A stretch of 64,000 nucleotides of DNA from Phycisphaerae bacterium. GTDB lineage: Bacteria > Planctomycetota > Phycisphaerae > Phycisphaerales > UBA1924. Within the stretch, counting starts at the first letter, position 1. The number at the start of each line of letters is the position of its first letter. The stretch covers positions 310,001 through 374,000 of the forward strand of contig JAUIES010000001.1 of assembly GCA_030429705.1 (NCBI GenBank). The letters are read 5' to 3'. The notes below the pieces were generated by a model. The model saw nothing but the letters and a program-made list of their open reading frames with translations. It made no database searches and was not told where the DNA came from. Below, piece after piece: positions 49,629 to 56,912 of the stretch. The translations under genes and the position numbers were made by a program.

Positions 49629-51182
49629 GTGTACCAATCTCTCCTCAATCGCCGATACCTCACGAGCAAGATCATGCCGCTGCTGTCGCTGGTGGCTGTG
49701 CTGCTCTCGACCGCGACGATCCTCGTCACCTGGTCGGTCATGGGCGGTTTCCTGCAAACGCTCAAAGACTCAGGTCGAACGCTGATCGGCGATGTCGCAA
49801 TCACCTGGCCGAACATCGGTTTCGCACACTATGACGATTTGATCGCTCGGCTCGAAGCCCAACCTGAGGTCGCAGCCGCCGCACCGGTCATCGAGACCTT
49901 CGGCATGATCCGCCTCCCCGATGATCGACTGCAAGCGGTGTCGATCAAGGGGATCGATGGTCCGTCATTCGATCGGGTGACGAACTACGCAAGTACGCTG
50001 TTCTGGCGATCGCTCGATGAACCGACACCAAAGGACAAATCGCGCCAAGACCTTCGATTGCCGGAAAATACTGAGCGTGCGTTTCTCGACAGTGTCTACG
50101 ACAACGGCATGCAACTGACGCGCGTCGAACCGGGAGGCACCATCGAGCCCGCTGTCGTCCCCGGCATCGAGGTCACCGGACTCAACAATCGGCAACAATG
50201 GGGCGGGTACATTCCCATGGCCACGGTCCGCCCACTCGCTGATGGTGCTGTGGCTGCTGAAAATGTGTTCATGCCGCGCAATGGGCACCTGGCGATTACG
50301 CTGCTCGCGCTCGACTCGAATGGTCGATTCGCCGACGCAATCACACGGCAATTCCCGGTCGCCAACGAGTTTCAGAGCGGTATCTTCGAGGCCGACAGCC
50401 AGATCGTCCTCGCCCGGCTCGATGCGCTGCAGTCGATGCTGAATCTTGACGAAGCCCAGCGCGTCAAACCAGCCGGTCCATTCGACACCGTCATTGACCC
50501 CGAGACCGGGCAGGAAGTCCCCGCCCCCCCGACGATCATCGGCGTCGACCCTGCTCGAGTGACCAGTGTGCTCGTGCGGGCGGCCGATGGGTATGACTCC
50601 AACGCCGTCGCCAAGGTCTGCGACCGGGTCTACGGCGAGTTCGCTCGAGCCCACGCAGGAGAAGTGCCGGATGCATTCAACATCCTCATCAAAACCTGGC
50701 AGGAGAAAAACGCGACGCTGATCTCAGCCGTCGAAAAAGAAACCGGTCTGGTGCTGTTCATCTTCGGCATCGTCTGTTTCACCAATGTCTTTCTTGTCCT
50801 CTCGATTTTCTGGTCGATGGTTTCTGAGAAAACCAAGGACATCGGCATCCTGCGGGCCATTGGGGCAAGCACCGGCGGCATCGCGTGGCTCTGGATCCGC
50901 TACGGCCTCGTCATCGGCACGGTCGGCGCATCGGCCGGCGTGCTGGCTGCCTGGATCATCGTCCGCAACATCAACCCCATTCATGATTGGATTGGCCGTG
51001 TGACCGGCATCGTCATCTGGGACCCAACCGTGTACTACTTCATCGAAGTGCCGAATAAAGTGGACTGGGTTCACGCCGTCTTTGTGTTTCTCGCGGGTCT
51101 CGCGACTTGCTTGTTCGGAGCGGCGATTCCGGCGATTCGGGCGGCCACCATGGACCCGGTGAAAGCGTTGAGGTTTGAGTGA
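49629..51182 (+). CDS. LolC/E-like ABC transporter permease
   Basis: A 517-residue GTG-start protein. N-terminal RRYLTSKIMPLLSLVAVLLS is the LolC/E-type first helix. A large periplasmic domain (~60-350) follows, with C-terminal FtsX helices including SEKTKDIGILRAIGASTGGI, and the usual end AATMDPVKALRFE. It probably extracts or exports lipoproteins or lipids with the ATPase encoded by the next gene, whose GTG start overlaps this stop by 4 bp. Confidence 0.9.
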   Translation: MYQSLLNRRYLTSKIMPLLSLVAVLLSTATILVTWSVMGGFLQTLKDSGRTLIGDVAITWPNIGFAHYDDLIARLEAQPEVAAAAPVIETFGMIRLPDDRLQAVSIKGIDGPSFDRVTNYASTLFWRSLDEPTPKDKSRQDLRLPENTERAFLDSVYDNGMQLTRVEPGGTIEPAVVPGIEVTGLNNRQQWGGYIPMATVRPLADGAVAAENVFMPRNGHLAITLLALDSNGRFADAITRQFPVANEFQSGIFEADSQIVLARLDALQSMLNLDEAQRVKPAGPFDTVIDPETGQEVPAPPTIIGVDPARVTSVLVRAADGYDSNAVAKVCDRVYGEFARAHAGEVPDAFNILIKTWQEKNATLISAVEKETGLVLFIFGIVCFTNVFLVLSIFWSMVSEKTKDIGILRAIGASTGGIAWLWIRYGLVIGTVGASAGVLAAWIIVRNINPIHDWIGRVTGIVIWDPTVYYFIEVPNKVDWVHAVFVFLAGLATCLFGAAIPAIRAATMDPVKALRFE

Positions 51183-52300
51183 ACAAGCAGCCTTCAGCCA
51201 TTTCCCAAATACGTTGGATACTGCTCTTGGCAGGGCTCGTACTCCTAGCCGGAGGAGCTTGGCTCGCATTGGGTTTTACTCCCCCAACTGGCATGTCCCA
51301 GTTCTGGAGCAAGGTACTGAAACGATGGATACTTGTCCTTTGTGTTCCAGGGTTCGTAGTTGTTTTCGTTTCAATCGTTCCAGCATGGCGTGCGTTGCGT
51401 GGCATTACGGATGATCAGGATGAAACCCACGATGTTGGGTTTACCAGCCGAGTTCCTCACTCAAACGCACCGGTCCCAACCGGCCCCATCCTCTCCGCTC
51501 GCAGCATCCACAAGACCTATCGCCTCGGCCGCGTGGGTGTCCCGGTCCTCCGCGGCGTCGACCTCGAAGTCGAACGCGGCTCATGGATCGCCGTCCTCGG
51601 TGCATCGGGCTCGGGCAAATCCACACTCCTCCACCTGCTCGGCGGGCTCGACCGCCCGGACACACCTGCCAAGTCTGCACGACATTGTCGCCGCTGCGGC
51701 TACAGCCGGGCCGGACTTTCGAACGACACACGATGCCCGGAGTGCGACGAACCGCAACGCACGCTTGCCCCCCCGCACATCGTCTATGAAGGCCGCGAAC
51801 TGTCCGGCATGTCCACCGCCGAACTGGACCGCTATCGCAGCGGAACCGTGGGCTTCGTCTTCCAGTTCTATCACCTGCTGCCGGAACTGTCGGTCCTTGA
51901 AAATGTCACCATCGGTGCGATGGTGCTGCACGGGCGGTTTGGGTACATGAAGGCGCGCAGCGAAGCCCGCGACCGGGCCCGCGAACTGCTCGATACCTTC
52001 GGCCTCGGCCATCGCCTGCGCCACAGACCGCGTGAACTCTCGGGCGGCGAACGCCAGCGCGTCGCCATCGCCCGAGCCCTGATCAACCGCCCAAAGATCC
52101 TGCTGGCCGACGAACCGACCGGCAACCTCGACCGAACGACGGGGGGGAGTATCCTCGACGCAATCGAGAGCATCCAGCAGGCCGAGGGGCTGACCATGGT
52201 GATGGTGACCCATGACCCGACCATCGCCGAGCGAGCCGCACGGACTGTGAATCTGGTTGACGGTGTCGTCGTTGACAAACCGGTCTTCGAGGAGTCATAA
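51179..52300 (+). CDS. LolD-like ABC ATPase with N-terminal membrane helices and inserted zinc ribbon
   Basis: A 373-residue protein. Residues 12-33 and 50-69 are transmembrane helices, which are absent from ordinary LolD. The ATPase domain begins about residue 105: Walker A GASGSGKS (141-148), Q-loop Gln229, signature LSGGE (287-291), Walker B ILLADEP (307-313). Between Walker A and the Q-loop is a four-Cys zinc-ribbon-like insert, C-x2-C (170, 173) and C-x2-C (186, 189). The partner permease is the preceding gene. Typical LolD is ~230 residues. Confidence 0.9.
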   Translation: MNKQPSAISQIRWILLLAGLVLLAGGAWLALGFTPPTGMSQFWSKVLKRWILVLCVPGFVVVFVSIVPAWRALRGITDDQDETHDVGFTSRVPHSNAPVPTGPILSARSIHKTYRLGRVGVPVLRGVDLEVERGSWIAVLGASGSGKSTLLHLLGGLDRPDTPAKSARHCRRCGYSRAGLSNDTRCPECDEPQRTLAPPHIVYEGRELSGMSTAELDRYRSGTVGFVFQFYHLLPELSVLENVTIGAMVLHGRFGYMKARSEARDRARELLDTFGLGHRLRHRPRELSGGERQRVAIARALINRPKILLADEPTGNLDRTTGGSILDAIESIQQAEGLTMVMVTHDPTIAERAARTVNLVDGVVVDKPVFEES

Positions 52301-52366: not shown

Positions 52367-52873
52367 ATGCACGAGGTCACACTTCCTCAGTCTGTCGAAC
52401 CCGTTGTTCCCGGCGTATGTGTTGGATGCGGTGAAGCTCCCGATTCTGTGCGTTTCGTTCGCGTTGCCCCCCTTGCATTTATTGCATTCCTTGCCCCTTT
52501 TCCATTACCCGGCTCGCGCTTGGTGCACGCCCCCATTTGCCGTTCGTGCCGCGCACGCGACCGCCGCCAACTCATGCGCGACAATCTCTTGGGCTTCCCT
52601 ATTTTCTTCGCCTTTTTGCTTGGGTCGATCTGGTTGTTCAGATCGCTCCTCCCGTACCCGTGGTGGTTCGTGCCGGCGATCATCGTCTTGTTTATCGTGA
52701 TCTGCATTCTTGCAGTCGCCTTCGGAGACCCCTCGATGGTCGCTCGGCGCGTCGACTCCAACATTGTGTACGGCTTCCGGAGTCCATACGGAGCGACCCG
52801 TTTTGCCCGCCTAAACGGAACGCGGATCACCCGTCACGAAGCCCCTACCTTCAACTGGCGAGAGCAATTCTGA
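52367..52873 (+). CDS. Two-helix membrane protein with Cys motifs
   Basis: A 168-residue protein from the ATG at 52367. A C-x2-C (CVGC) near the N-terminus and a second pair (CRSC) around residue 54 could bind zinc. They flank a short hydrophobic stretch (LAFIAFLAPFPL). Two membrane helices follow (LGFPIFFAFLLGSIWLF and WFVPAIIVLFIVICILAVAF). The layout suggests a zinc-ribbon membrane protein. No family recognised. Confidence 0.65.
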   Translation: MHEVTLPQSVEPVVPGVCVGCGEAPDSVRFVRVAPLAFIAFLAPFPLPGSRLVHAPICRSCRARDRRQLMRDNLLGFPIFFAFLLGSIWLFRSLLPYPWWFVPAIIVLFIVICILAVAFGDPSMVARRVDSNIVYGFRSPYGATRFARLNGTRITRHEAPTFNWREQF

Positions 52874-53918: not shown

Positions 53919-56807
53919 TTACGGACAGCCGGCCGTGAAATCACTCAGGAACTCGAGCACATCAAAGAAGTCGATCATGCCGTCGCAGGTGAAGTCTGCA
54001 CGCAGTTCGCCATCGGTGAATGCACCGAGATACGCCAGCACATCGAAGAAATCGAGGTTGCCATCGGGGTTGAAGTCGGCCCGGCAGCCGCCGATGCAGA
54101 GCTGACCGCCTGCATACGCGATGCACTGCTGCCCGCCACCGAACAGACTGTTCAGGTGAACCCACGCCGATCCATCCCATGCATAGGTTTCGATGTCGTT
54201 GAGCACAAGCGTTGCGTTGGCTGCGATCTCGAGCCCGGCTGCGCCGTCAATGCCGGTGATGTATAGGGCTTCGGGCACGCCGCCGGTGCGGTTGTTATTG
54301 TTGTAGCAGTCACGCAGTTCAACCACGGTTTGGAAGCCGCCCGCGTCACCGATCGTGAGGTGCCCGATCCTGAAATCATTGAGTTCGGATCCATCGACCG
54401 GCATGCCAACATCTTCTGAAGCAACTTCGAGCAATTTGATCCCGGCGCCATTCATGACGAGTGTACTGTCGGTGAAGCCGTACCCGTTTGACGCGCCCGT
54501 CGCTGTGCTGAGCATATCACCGCCACAGACGATTGTACTTCCGTTGGCAGCGGAGAGGGCGTGTCCCCGCGCAATGCAATCGGCACCGAACAGAACTGTC
54601 CCCCCCTGAGCAGCGATAATCGAGATATTAACATCGCACGCCTGCAGACCGGACAGGTCAATCGTCCCGTCAAATGCATAGAAATACGCACGGCGACCAT
54701 TTTCAAAGGTCCCCATGATGTGCGAAACATTGCTCATGTCGAGCGTTGCTCCGTCATACCATGCATGAAAATCAACATTCAACCCAGTGCCGACGCTGAT
54801 GGTATCGAGCGATGTCATGTCCAACAGCGTTCCGGCGTTGTACGCGCCAAACGCGGTCGAGTGCAAGGTCGGCGTGTCATAGTTCGTGATCGCACCCGGC
54901 ATGGTGAAATTGGCGCCGTTGCGAGCATAAATGCGTGCTCCGTTGGCCGATTTCAAACCGCCATGGTTGAAGGTATACGCAGCGGACAACTCGACCACCA
55001 TGTCGTCGATATCCGTCAAGCCGGGGACATTGAGCGTGCCGCCGTTATAGATCTCAAGATACTCAAGATTGGCAAACTCAGCCGTTGGGGAAACGGTGAT
55101 CGTGCCGTTGCTATCCACATCAAGGCGAGCCCGTGTCGCAACATTTTGCAATCCCGTGAGATCAATCGCACCGTCAAAGGCATACACATAGAACTGACCG
55201 GAACCCCCGGTCACGGTCTGTAGCCCGGACAGATCGAGCGTCGCGCCCGAATACCAAGCGTACATATTGACATTGCCGCTCACATCGAGTTCAAGAGACT
55301 GCAGCGCACTCGCATCGATATGAGTCCCTGCGTTCACCGCATGGAACGGTGTCCGCGTGTTGTATCCCACAGCCGAGTAGATCGAGTTCGGATAAACGAA
55401 CTCATGTGCGCCCGCAGCATAGAACTGCGCTCCATTCAAAGTACCACCGCCCGCGAGGTTCACCGCCGAAGTCGGTCCGCTCAGATTGAAGTAGGTCCCA
55501 TTCGCATCGACGACACCCGGCAGATTGACCACGCCGCCGTTCAGTGCATCAATGCGTTCAAGACGGTCCATGACTGCTGTGGAACTGACATTAATCGTCC
55601 CGTTCAGGTCTGTATGGAGCCGAAGACGGGGTACAACGAGGTCGAGATCGGTCAAATCGATCGTGCCGTCATATGCGTAGACATACAGAAAACTGTTGTC
55701 GCCTGTAACGGTGTCAAGGCCGGACAGGTCGAGTTGCGCCCCGCCGTACCAGGCGTACAAGTTCATCTGGGCGTTGTCTTGAACCTGGAGCGTTTGAATG
55801 CTGGAGGCATCAATCAGCGTACCCGGATTCTGCGCGTGAAATGATGTATACCCGCCAAAGCCATCACCTGAGTACGCACTATGCGTGGTGGTCAATGTGG
55901 CGCCACTTCGGATATCGAATCGCGCGCCGTCAATATCGGGCAAGGCACCCAGATTGATTTGTGAAGTCCCCCCTCGAATGTAGAGCACGCCGCCCAGATC
56001 TGTCACACTCTGCGCATTAATTGTGCTGTTGCCATATGCTTCGATTCTTGTCAGTCCCGGCAGCGGGGCATTCGGCAGATTGATCAAGCCATCAAGATCT
56101 GCGTGCACCCGAATCGGGCCATCTGTATTCGTTAGACTTGCGAGGTCGATGTTGCCGTCATATGCGTACAAGTACAACTGTCCTGTTCCACCCCAGGTGA
56201 TGTCGGTGGTGTTGGACAGGTCAAGCGTTCCTCCGCCGTACCACGAGTAGAAATTGGCACCATAGTTTGGCGCCAGCATGATCGTCTGTACTGACGAAGC
56301 GTCGATCGTCGATGACGCATTGCGGACATCGAGACTGAACGGACCAGTAAAGGGGGACGCATCAAACGAAGTTGAGTTCACGGTCACTGACCCGCCCGTG
56401 GTCGCATGCAACTGTCGAACATTCAACGCGTCAAACCCACCCGGGTTGGTGAACTCGATGTTTCCGCCAAAACAGCGAATATACGCACCATCGACCATGG
56501 CGTTGCCCAGAACCGTCATGTTAACGCCGGTGTACAGGTCATGATACGAGGCATCACCAATCGTCAGGTCATTGATCTCGTGATCGCCCGTGTAAAGCTG
56601 CCAGCGTGTGTTGATCGATGCCGGAAAGAACAGGTTGTACGTGTCCCCGCCGCCATTAACAGGGACGACACCGATATCCCAGTTGGCTGGGTCACCGTTC
56701 AATCCCCCGCTCGGGCCGATGTAGGTCGCGTCGATTTGTCCCGCCGCTGTTCCTGCAAGAAAAGCTAAAAGAACAGCCGCACTGCTCGTTCGATAGTGAA
56801 CTTTCAT
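53919..56807 (-). CDS. Large secreted four-repeat protein with C-terminal dockerin
   Basis: A 962-residue protein with AAGGAGCGG before the ATG at 56807 and a signal peptide (AVLLAFLAGTAAG). It contains four repeats of ~165 residues starting about 169, 331, 497 and 664, each with D-x-S-[SA]-x-Q/D-[ST], '[SA]WY-x-G-[AG]-x-LD[LM]S' and '[LF]Y-x-YA[FY]DG-x-IDL'. The predicted fold is beta-helix-like. The end is a dockerin-type pair (RADFNPDGNLDFFDVLAYL, then DGMIDFFDVLEFLSDF) finishing 'GCP'. A cell-surface structural or adhesin-like role is likely. It lacks the poly-Arg CTERM tail. Confidence 0.88.
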   Translation of the reverse strand: MKVHYRTSSAAVLLAFLAGTAAGQIDATYIGPSGGLNGDPANWDIGVVPVNGGGDTYNLFFPASINTRWQLYTGDHEINDLTIGDASYHDLYTGVNMTVLGNAMVDGAYIRCFGGNIEFTNPGGFDALNVRQLHATTGGSVTVNSTSFDASPFTGPFSLDVRNASSTIDASSVQTIMLAPNYGANFYSWYGGGTLDLSNTTDITWGGTGQLYLYAYDGNIDLASLTNTDGPIRVHADLDGLINLPNAPLPGLTRIEAYGNSTINAQSVTDLGGVLYIRGGTSQINLGALPDIDGARFDIRSGATLTTTHSAYSGDGFGGYTSFHAQNPGTLIDASSIQTLQVQDNAQMNLYAWYGGAQLDLSGLDTVTGDNSFLYVYAYDGTIDLTDLDLVVPRLRLHTDLNGTINVSSTAVMDRLERIDALNGGVVNLPGVVDANGTYFNLSGPTSAVNLAGGGTLNGAQFYAAGAHEFVYPNSIYSAVGYNTRTPFHAVNAGTHIDASALQSLELDVSGNVNMYAWYSGATLDLSGLQTVTGGSGQFYVYAFDGAIDLTGLQNVATRARLDVDSNGTITVSPTAEFANLEYLEIYNGGTLNVPGLTDIDDMVVELSAAYTFNHGGLKSANGARIYARNGANFTMPGAITNYDTPTLHSTAFGAYNAGTLLDMTSLDTISVGTGLNVDFHAWYDGATLDMSNVSHIMGTFENGRRAYFYAFDGTIDLSGLQACDVNISIIAAQGGTVLFGADCIARGHALSAANGSTIVCGGDMLSTATGASNGYGFTDSTLVMNGAGIKLLEVASEDVGMPVDGSELNDFRIGHLTIGDAGGFQTVVELRDCYNNNNRTGGVPEALYITGIDGAAGLEIAANATLVLNDIETYAWDGSAWVHLNSLFGGGQQCIAYAGGQLCIGGCRADFNPDGNLDFFDVLAYLGAFTDGELRADFTCDGMIDFFDVLEFLSDFTAGCP

Positions 56808-56912
56808 TTTCCGCTCCTTGAGATCTGATTTTCTCCCACGAGACTTCATGGTACCGAGGCGTTCACTCCACTCAAGCGCTTTTTTGTCCATTCAATCACC
56901 CTACAATCCAAC

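Follow-up and report, generated by a model that had tools for sequence, protein, structure and literature searches.

A putative zinc ribbon inserted at the end of the Walker A helix of a LolD-type ABC ATPase

In the ABC ATPase Rad50, zinc-binding cysteines at the apex of a long coiled coil form a hook, through which two molecules dimerise. UvrA and Ecm16 are ABC-type ATPases with Cys4 zinc modules. In Ecm16, module 3 is made of two C-x2-C pairs (C589/C592 and C612/C615), whereas the pairs of the split module 2 (C176/C179 and C296/C299) lie far apart in sequence (PMC10192343). Closest to the protein studied here is LolD, the ATPase of the LolCDE and LolFD systems of E. coli and other bacteria. 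The LolF-LolD operon is the commonest Lol arrangement, as stated in a text in which a word search turned up no Planctomycetes (PMC11784454).

We analysed a window of 64,000 nucleotides from a Phycisphaerae bacterium, which encodes an ATPase sharing with LolD the ABC core with all its motifs and the permease-ATPase gene pair. In contrast to LolD, it carries a 38-residue Cys4 insert at a place corresponding to LolD positions ~60-65, as well as N-terminal membrane helices, and it resides in a genome without detected LolA. The putative module resembles the Cys4 modules of UvrA and Ecm16; these proteins, however, belong to another family, bind DNA and carry their zinc modules as regular family features, and we found no evidence of common descent with the ribbon described here. 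It also differs from the Rad50 hook, being a short loop and not the tip of a long coiled coil. In the open-licence literature we found no zinc ribbon in a Planctomycetes ABC transporter, no zinc-ribbon insertion after the Walker A of an ABC ATPase and no GYDLRGL motif (four spellings). Among the matches listed for zinc ribbons and Planctomycetes, no such ATPase appeared in titles or abstract openings.

The ATPase gene, its permease partner and the insert

The ATPase (373 aa; 51179-52300, forward strand) starts with a GTG codon, the last two bases of which open the stop codon of the gene upstream, and is preceded by a GAGG ending five bases before the start. The upstream gene (49629-51182, forward strand), which at its stop shares 4 bases with the start of the ATPase gene, encodes a FtsX permease of the LolC/E (LolF) type (FtsX, 6.5e-15), the partner of the ATPase. 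Its best NCBIfam family is lolCE TIGR02212 (E 8e-46), at 156.8 bits and below the cut-off of 362.45. A LolC/E-type permease thus lies directly upstream of the ATPase, as in a LolF/LolD operon. This pairing also occurs in 13 of the 14 other genomes with the ribbon, G350 being the exception (locus L095, 12.8 kb, without a permease).

For the ATPase itself the best NCBIfam family is LolD TIGR02211 (1.8e-68; 230.4 bits). Because the curated cut-off of 307.75 is not reached, even though this is the best-scoring family, we call the protein LolD-type and not LolD. Orthologues without the ribbon (L085, L090 and L109) fall short of the same cut-off, at 243-256 bits; lineage divergence, rather than the insert, is therefore the main cause of the shortfall. 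Solved LolD chains also come first by sequence (1.2e-52; YbbA, 1.4e-48). By fold, the top match is LolD chain 9rlj_D (Z 31.9, 228/228 residues, rmsd 1.7, 43% identity), tied within 1 Z with MacB 5lj9 (Z 31.1). No LolA was detected at E 0.01 in the genome (96% complete) using the single profile PF03548, which in a control matched 6 of 14 genomes, E. coli included. The substrate, and with it a lipoprotein function, is thus uncertain.

Apart from the insert the ATPase is intact, as the original prediction had it. The translation contains the Walker A GASGSGKST (residues 141-149; 51599-51625), the Q-loop region VGFVFQFYHLLPEL (residues 224-237; 51848-51889), the ABC signature LSGGERQR (residues 287-294; 52037-52060) and the Walker B with its catalytic Glu, ILLADEP (residues 307-313; 52097-52117), all on the forward strand. 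The Pfam ABC_tran match (1.7e-29) is split into two stretches.

The insert covers residues 162-199 (38 aa; 51662-51775, forward strand), between LDRPD at the end of the Walker A helix and IVYEGREL, the strand before the Q-loop. Its core, C170-x2-C173-GYSRAGLSNDTR-C186-x2-C189 (51686-51745, forward strand), holds two C-x2-C pairs at exactly the residues claimed, and the only further Cys of the protein is Cys55. The insert had been described as about 35 residues long and as lying right after Walker A. The position needs correction, as 12 residues intervene and the insert sits where the Walker A helix ends.

The two N-terminal membrane helices claimed earlier are also predicted in frame (residues 5-27 and 45-73; 51191-51397, forward strand), yet they are a separate matter from the ribbon. 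In a structure model of the protein they appear as helices 7-30 and 37-54, with pLDDT of 37-45 at residues 51-90. GC3 is 0.48 over residues 1-100 (51179-51478) but 0.83 over residues 101-160. A search of 163 genomes of the family gave no clear homologue of the first 100 residues; four other genomes match at E <=0.01, the best at 2.3e-4 in a 661-aa frame. Only two of 146 orthologues have the helix pair, the present one and that of G017 (L010). By these predictions the helices occur in hardly any other genome, and the first 100 codons are perhaps a private fusion. A link between ribbon and helices was considered and rejected, G017 having no ribbon. Owing to their odd composition and to the single other orthologue with the pair, the helices should not serve to interpret the ribbon.

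Two neighbouring genes were noted. The next gene downstream (52367-52873, forward strand) encodes a small protein with hydrophobic segments and two C-x2-C pairs (CVGC and CRSC), which matches nothing in Pfam (E 0.01) or in NCBIfam (E 1e-5). Further on, a 990-aa repetitive protein (53919-56891, reverse strand) ends in two Asp-rich C-terminal motifs, DFNPDGNLDFFDVL and DFTCDGMIDFFDVL, dockerin-like by eye.

Conservation and patchy distribution of the cysteine pairs

We estimated how often such a motif would arise by chance. With Cys as frequent as in the LolD core (0.2%), two such C-x2-C pairs are expected 3e-9 times per 38 aa, or ~2e-6 times when scaled by hand to 1% Cys; the ribbon-free loops of relatives contain no Cys in 944 residues. 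An order-wide search with a query spanning the insert (E 1e-12) matched 26 of 400 genomes, 17 of them over the whole query. Two C-x2-C pairs are present in 15 of these 17, the other two being G009 and G059. This count, at least 15 of 400, is a lower bound, as ribbons unlike the query could escape outside the family census described below. Since the two C-x2-C pairs recur at one and the same site in these genomes, the insert is, judged from the sequences, more than a chance occurrence. Five of 80 named loci, including those of Phycisphaeraceae bacterium ACE_PLA10 and Phycisphaerales bacterium bin.134_sub, also have the ribbon; they were rejected as extra cases, their insert sequences being identical to those of five of the 15 genomes. 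In a phylum sample of 392 genomes, a match over the insert at E 1e-12 was obtained only in the genome of the window, a threshold that distant ribbons may escape.

When the 15 orthologues with the insert are aligned, no column of the insert is invariant except those of the four Cys: pairwise identity is 100% at the Cys, 63% in the core and 24% in the other insert columns. Two conserved C-x2-C knuckles, the hallmark of a zinc ribbon, are found in all 15. The C-x2-C spacing is fixed, and 11-18 residues separate the two pairs in the family of the window genome, or 9 in the three genomes of a second family (f2). Pfam zinc-ribbon models gave no score above cut-off on this ATPase or on four ribbon proteins of the same genome; on the ATPase, DUF7129 scored 15.5 (cut-off 30) and Zn_ribbon_3 13.7 (cut-off 27). 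The insert could in principle be a disordered linker with chance Cys and no metal, for which its moderate pLDDT in the two models described below would speak. The very low expected motif count, the absence of Cys from ribbon-free loops and the fact that all 15 aligned orthologues keep the four Cys make this highly improbable.

We then took a census of the family of the window genome. An orthologue was found at E 1e-42 in 147 of 163 genomes, one in each, and all 147 loci were inspected (40 earlier loci and 107 fetched), 146 of them readable. The ribbon is present in 12 of the 146 and absent from 134. Loops of 32-46 residues carry it in every case (12/12) and loops of 29 residues or less (median 7) never do (0/134). 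The association of loop length with ribbon is strong at a cut of 32 residues (Fisher p 8e-18), a cut picked after the data had been seen, and the gap between the ribbon-free and ribbon classes is small (29 against 32 residues). Insertions without Cys exist at the same site, of 29 residues in G059 and 21 in G009. Orthologues lacking the Cys pairs, or a spacing that is not conserved, had been named in advance as evidence against the ribbon. The outcome is mixed: most orthologues (134/146) lack the whole insert, but whenever the loop reaches 32 residues the pairs are present with their C-x2-C spacing fixed. With 134 of 146 orthologues devoid of it, the ribbon is dispensable for the transporter in general.

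With the three f2 genomes, the ribbon occupies the same site in two families of the order. Its history was followed on an ATPase tree from which the loop had been left out and which held 150 sequences, 146 from the family and 4 others. The trait requires at least 8 changes, against a mean of 14.6 when the ribbon label is shuffled; five are forced by starred (strong) branches, which are less trustworthy in a tree made by a quick method with SH-aLRT support only. The tree does not separate gain from loss, and each change may be either. On this sequence comparison the ribbon is gained or lost several times at the same spot in related bacteria, always with four Cys.

Such patchiness, seen even inside genera (ribbon in 1/2 readable members of g47, 1/2 of g38, 1/4 of g13, 1/4 of g73 and 1/3 of g50), would be expected of a tolerated cargo, a module that landed by chance in a permissive loop, kept its Cys only to fold harmlessly and has no function of its own. 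Ribbon-free loops are length-variable too, up to 29 residues, in keeping with this idea. It is the strongest rival of the reading that we prefer, because the need to fold would by itself also keep the Cys. On the other hand, the ribbon is present in all sampled members of two genera (3/3 in both g33 and g74), no ribbon-free loop among the 146 reaches 32 residues although unstructured linkers should be tolerated as well, and CstA has a module of this kind in one of its loops. We consider a mere cargo unlikely.

Structure models and the coupling interface

The model of the window ATPase has a mean pLDDT of 83, with values >90 in nearly the whole core and 63-80 in the insert; that of a second ribbon orthologue (L095) has a mean of 91, with 59-75 in the insert. 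Isolated bridge residues occur at 169/176/185/192 in the former and at 70/77/85/92 in the latter. The two sets fit one predicted ribbon hairpin shape, shifted by the one-residue difference in spacer. Together with the four Cys, invariant in 15 of 15 orthologues, these matching isolated beta bridges in two models give good support to a zinc-ribbon-like insert in a LolD-type ATPase.

When aligned to solved LolD, residue 161 of the window ATPase corresponds to LolD 60 and residue 202 to LolD 65. The original prediction had placed the insert near the nucleotide and near the coupling interface. The first placement finds no support in its position, at the far end of the Walker A helix. As to the second, Leu-443 and Tyr-444 of P-gp would stand just before the loop equivalent to that of the insert. 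In the report on P-gp, these two residues meet the coupling helix, and a L443C/S909C cross-link stopped activity until it was reduced (PMC4505440). Since the P-gp residues near the equivalent loop meet the coupling helix, the ribbon may, by analogy, lie beside the transmission interface. This makes the second placement plausible, but the coupling contacts that another study lists for LolD (S78, R85 and Y93) lie outside this loop (PMC11671585).

These data bear on the proposal that the insert makes transport zinc- or redox-responsive, loss of zinc or oxidation of the thiolates reshaping the loop and altering the coupling of ATP hydrolysis to the permease. The four thiolates are strictly kept, the loop comes next after the Walker A helix, a position for which the reversible block of P-gp by cross-linking offers a possible parallel, and the downstream neighbour likewise has two C-x2-C pairs. 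Against such a switch stand the many orthologues without the ribbon, the location of the listed LolD contacts elsewhere and a loop length varying over 32-46 residues, more in line with a tethered module than with a finely set switch. We regard a switch as quite improbable.

The reading that we favour, to which we give a probability of about 0.6, is that of a Zn(Cys)4 ribbon, structural and lineage-specific, that has undergone recurrent gain or loss in a loop tolerant of insertions. The LolD-type ATPase around it would remain intact, and the ribbon would have an accessory docking or stabilising role and neither a catalytic nor a switch function. A tethered, self-folding Zn(Cys)4 module is preferred to a part of the ATPase cycle because the catalytic motifs are undamaged, the insert is missing from most orthologues, and the Cys stay the same amid variable linkers and a variable spacer. 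The small length gap between the ribbon-free and ribbon loops led us to give slightly more weight to a tolerated cargo and less to this reading. According to the latter, a LolD-type ATPase paired with a LolF-like permease would have taken up a member of a ribbon family with the pattern C-x2-C-G-Y-x3-G-L ... C-P-x-C, seated in the surface loop that comes after the Walker A helix and naturally varies in length. The ribbon would bind one Zn2+ and fold as an independent hairpin, probably leaving ATP hydrolysis intact, and could act as an accessory contact or stabiliser on the cytoplasmic face, toward the permease, the membrane surface or a partner.

Related ribbons in the same genome and in CstA

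The 26-aa ribbon core, used as query against its own genome, matched 27 further places (E 1e-5 to 1.1), up to 64% identical; most of the weak matches among them keep a CGY...CPEC-like pattern. These C-x2-CGYxLxGL ... CPEC ribbons share the Cys pattern and the GY/GL signature of the window ribbon. For 24 of the 27, one or more membrane helices are predicted in the frame that holds the ribbon; two of these share one frame. The other ribbons of the genome are mostly found in membrane proteins, often near an end, whereas in the window ATPase and in CstA they are inside a conserved domain.

A recent DNA duplication of the window ribbon was looked for and not seen: none of the 27 places is a near-copy in DNA, and the best match by length (L032) is 71% identical over 63 bases (E 0.038). 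Some of the other copies are near-identical to each other at the DNA level, for example L042 and L047 (91% over 128 bases). We also observed a cluster of related genes with ribbon and membrane helices on contig C4 of the same genome (L045/L049, G000:C4:202268-202498; L050, L051 and L057 at C4:207-209 kb). Its members are similar in DNA and one gene has two tandem ribbons.

The CstA of this genome (PF02554, 2.8e-132) has its ribbon (L277, G000:C7:513622-513918) between RYIIAELAG and the next membrane segment. With this stretch as query, 61 of 163 family genomes matched; 30 loci were fetched and 27 were readable as CstA. The loop ribbon was recognised by pattern in 23 of the 27 and by eye in 2 more with a longer spacer, and is lacking in 2. 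As the loci were ranked by a query that itself holds the ribbon, these counts establish recurrence and not frequency. A wider, tentative extension, which we hold to be possible if on the unlikely side, is that the GY-x-L-x-GL ribbon is a lineage-specific module repeatedly inserted in transporter loops (at least those of LolD and CstA) of Phycisphaerales-like bacteria, where one shared partner might read it as a common tag for docking or as an input on metal status.

LolD-type ATPases are compact and conserved, and one of their loops is here a repeated landing site for a putative metal-binding module. The end of the Walker A helix is thus a place where an ABC ATPase takes up a new folded part while its motifs are kept. 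Orthologue pairs within a genus (G089 with the ribbon, G046 without) make the role of the ribbon directly testable. If the ribbon acts, tethering or tuning of an envelope transporter by such a module would be new.
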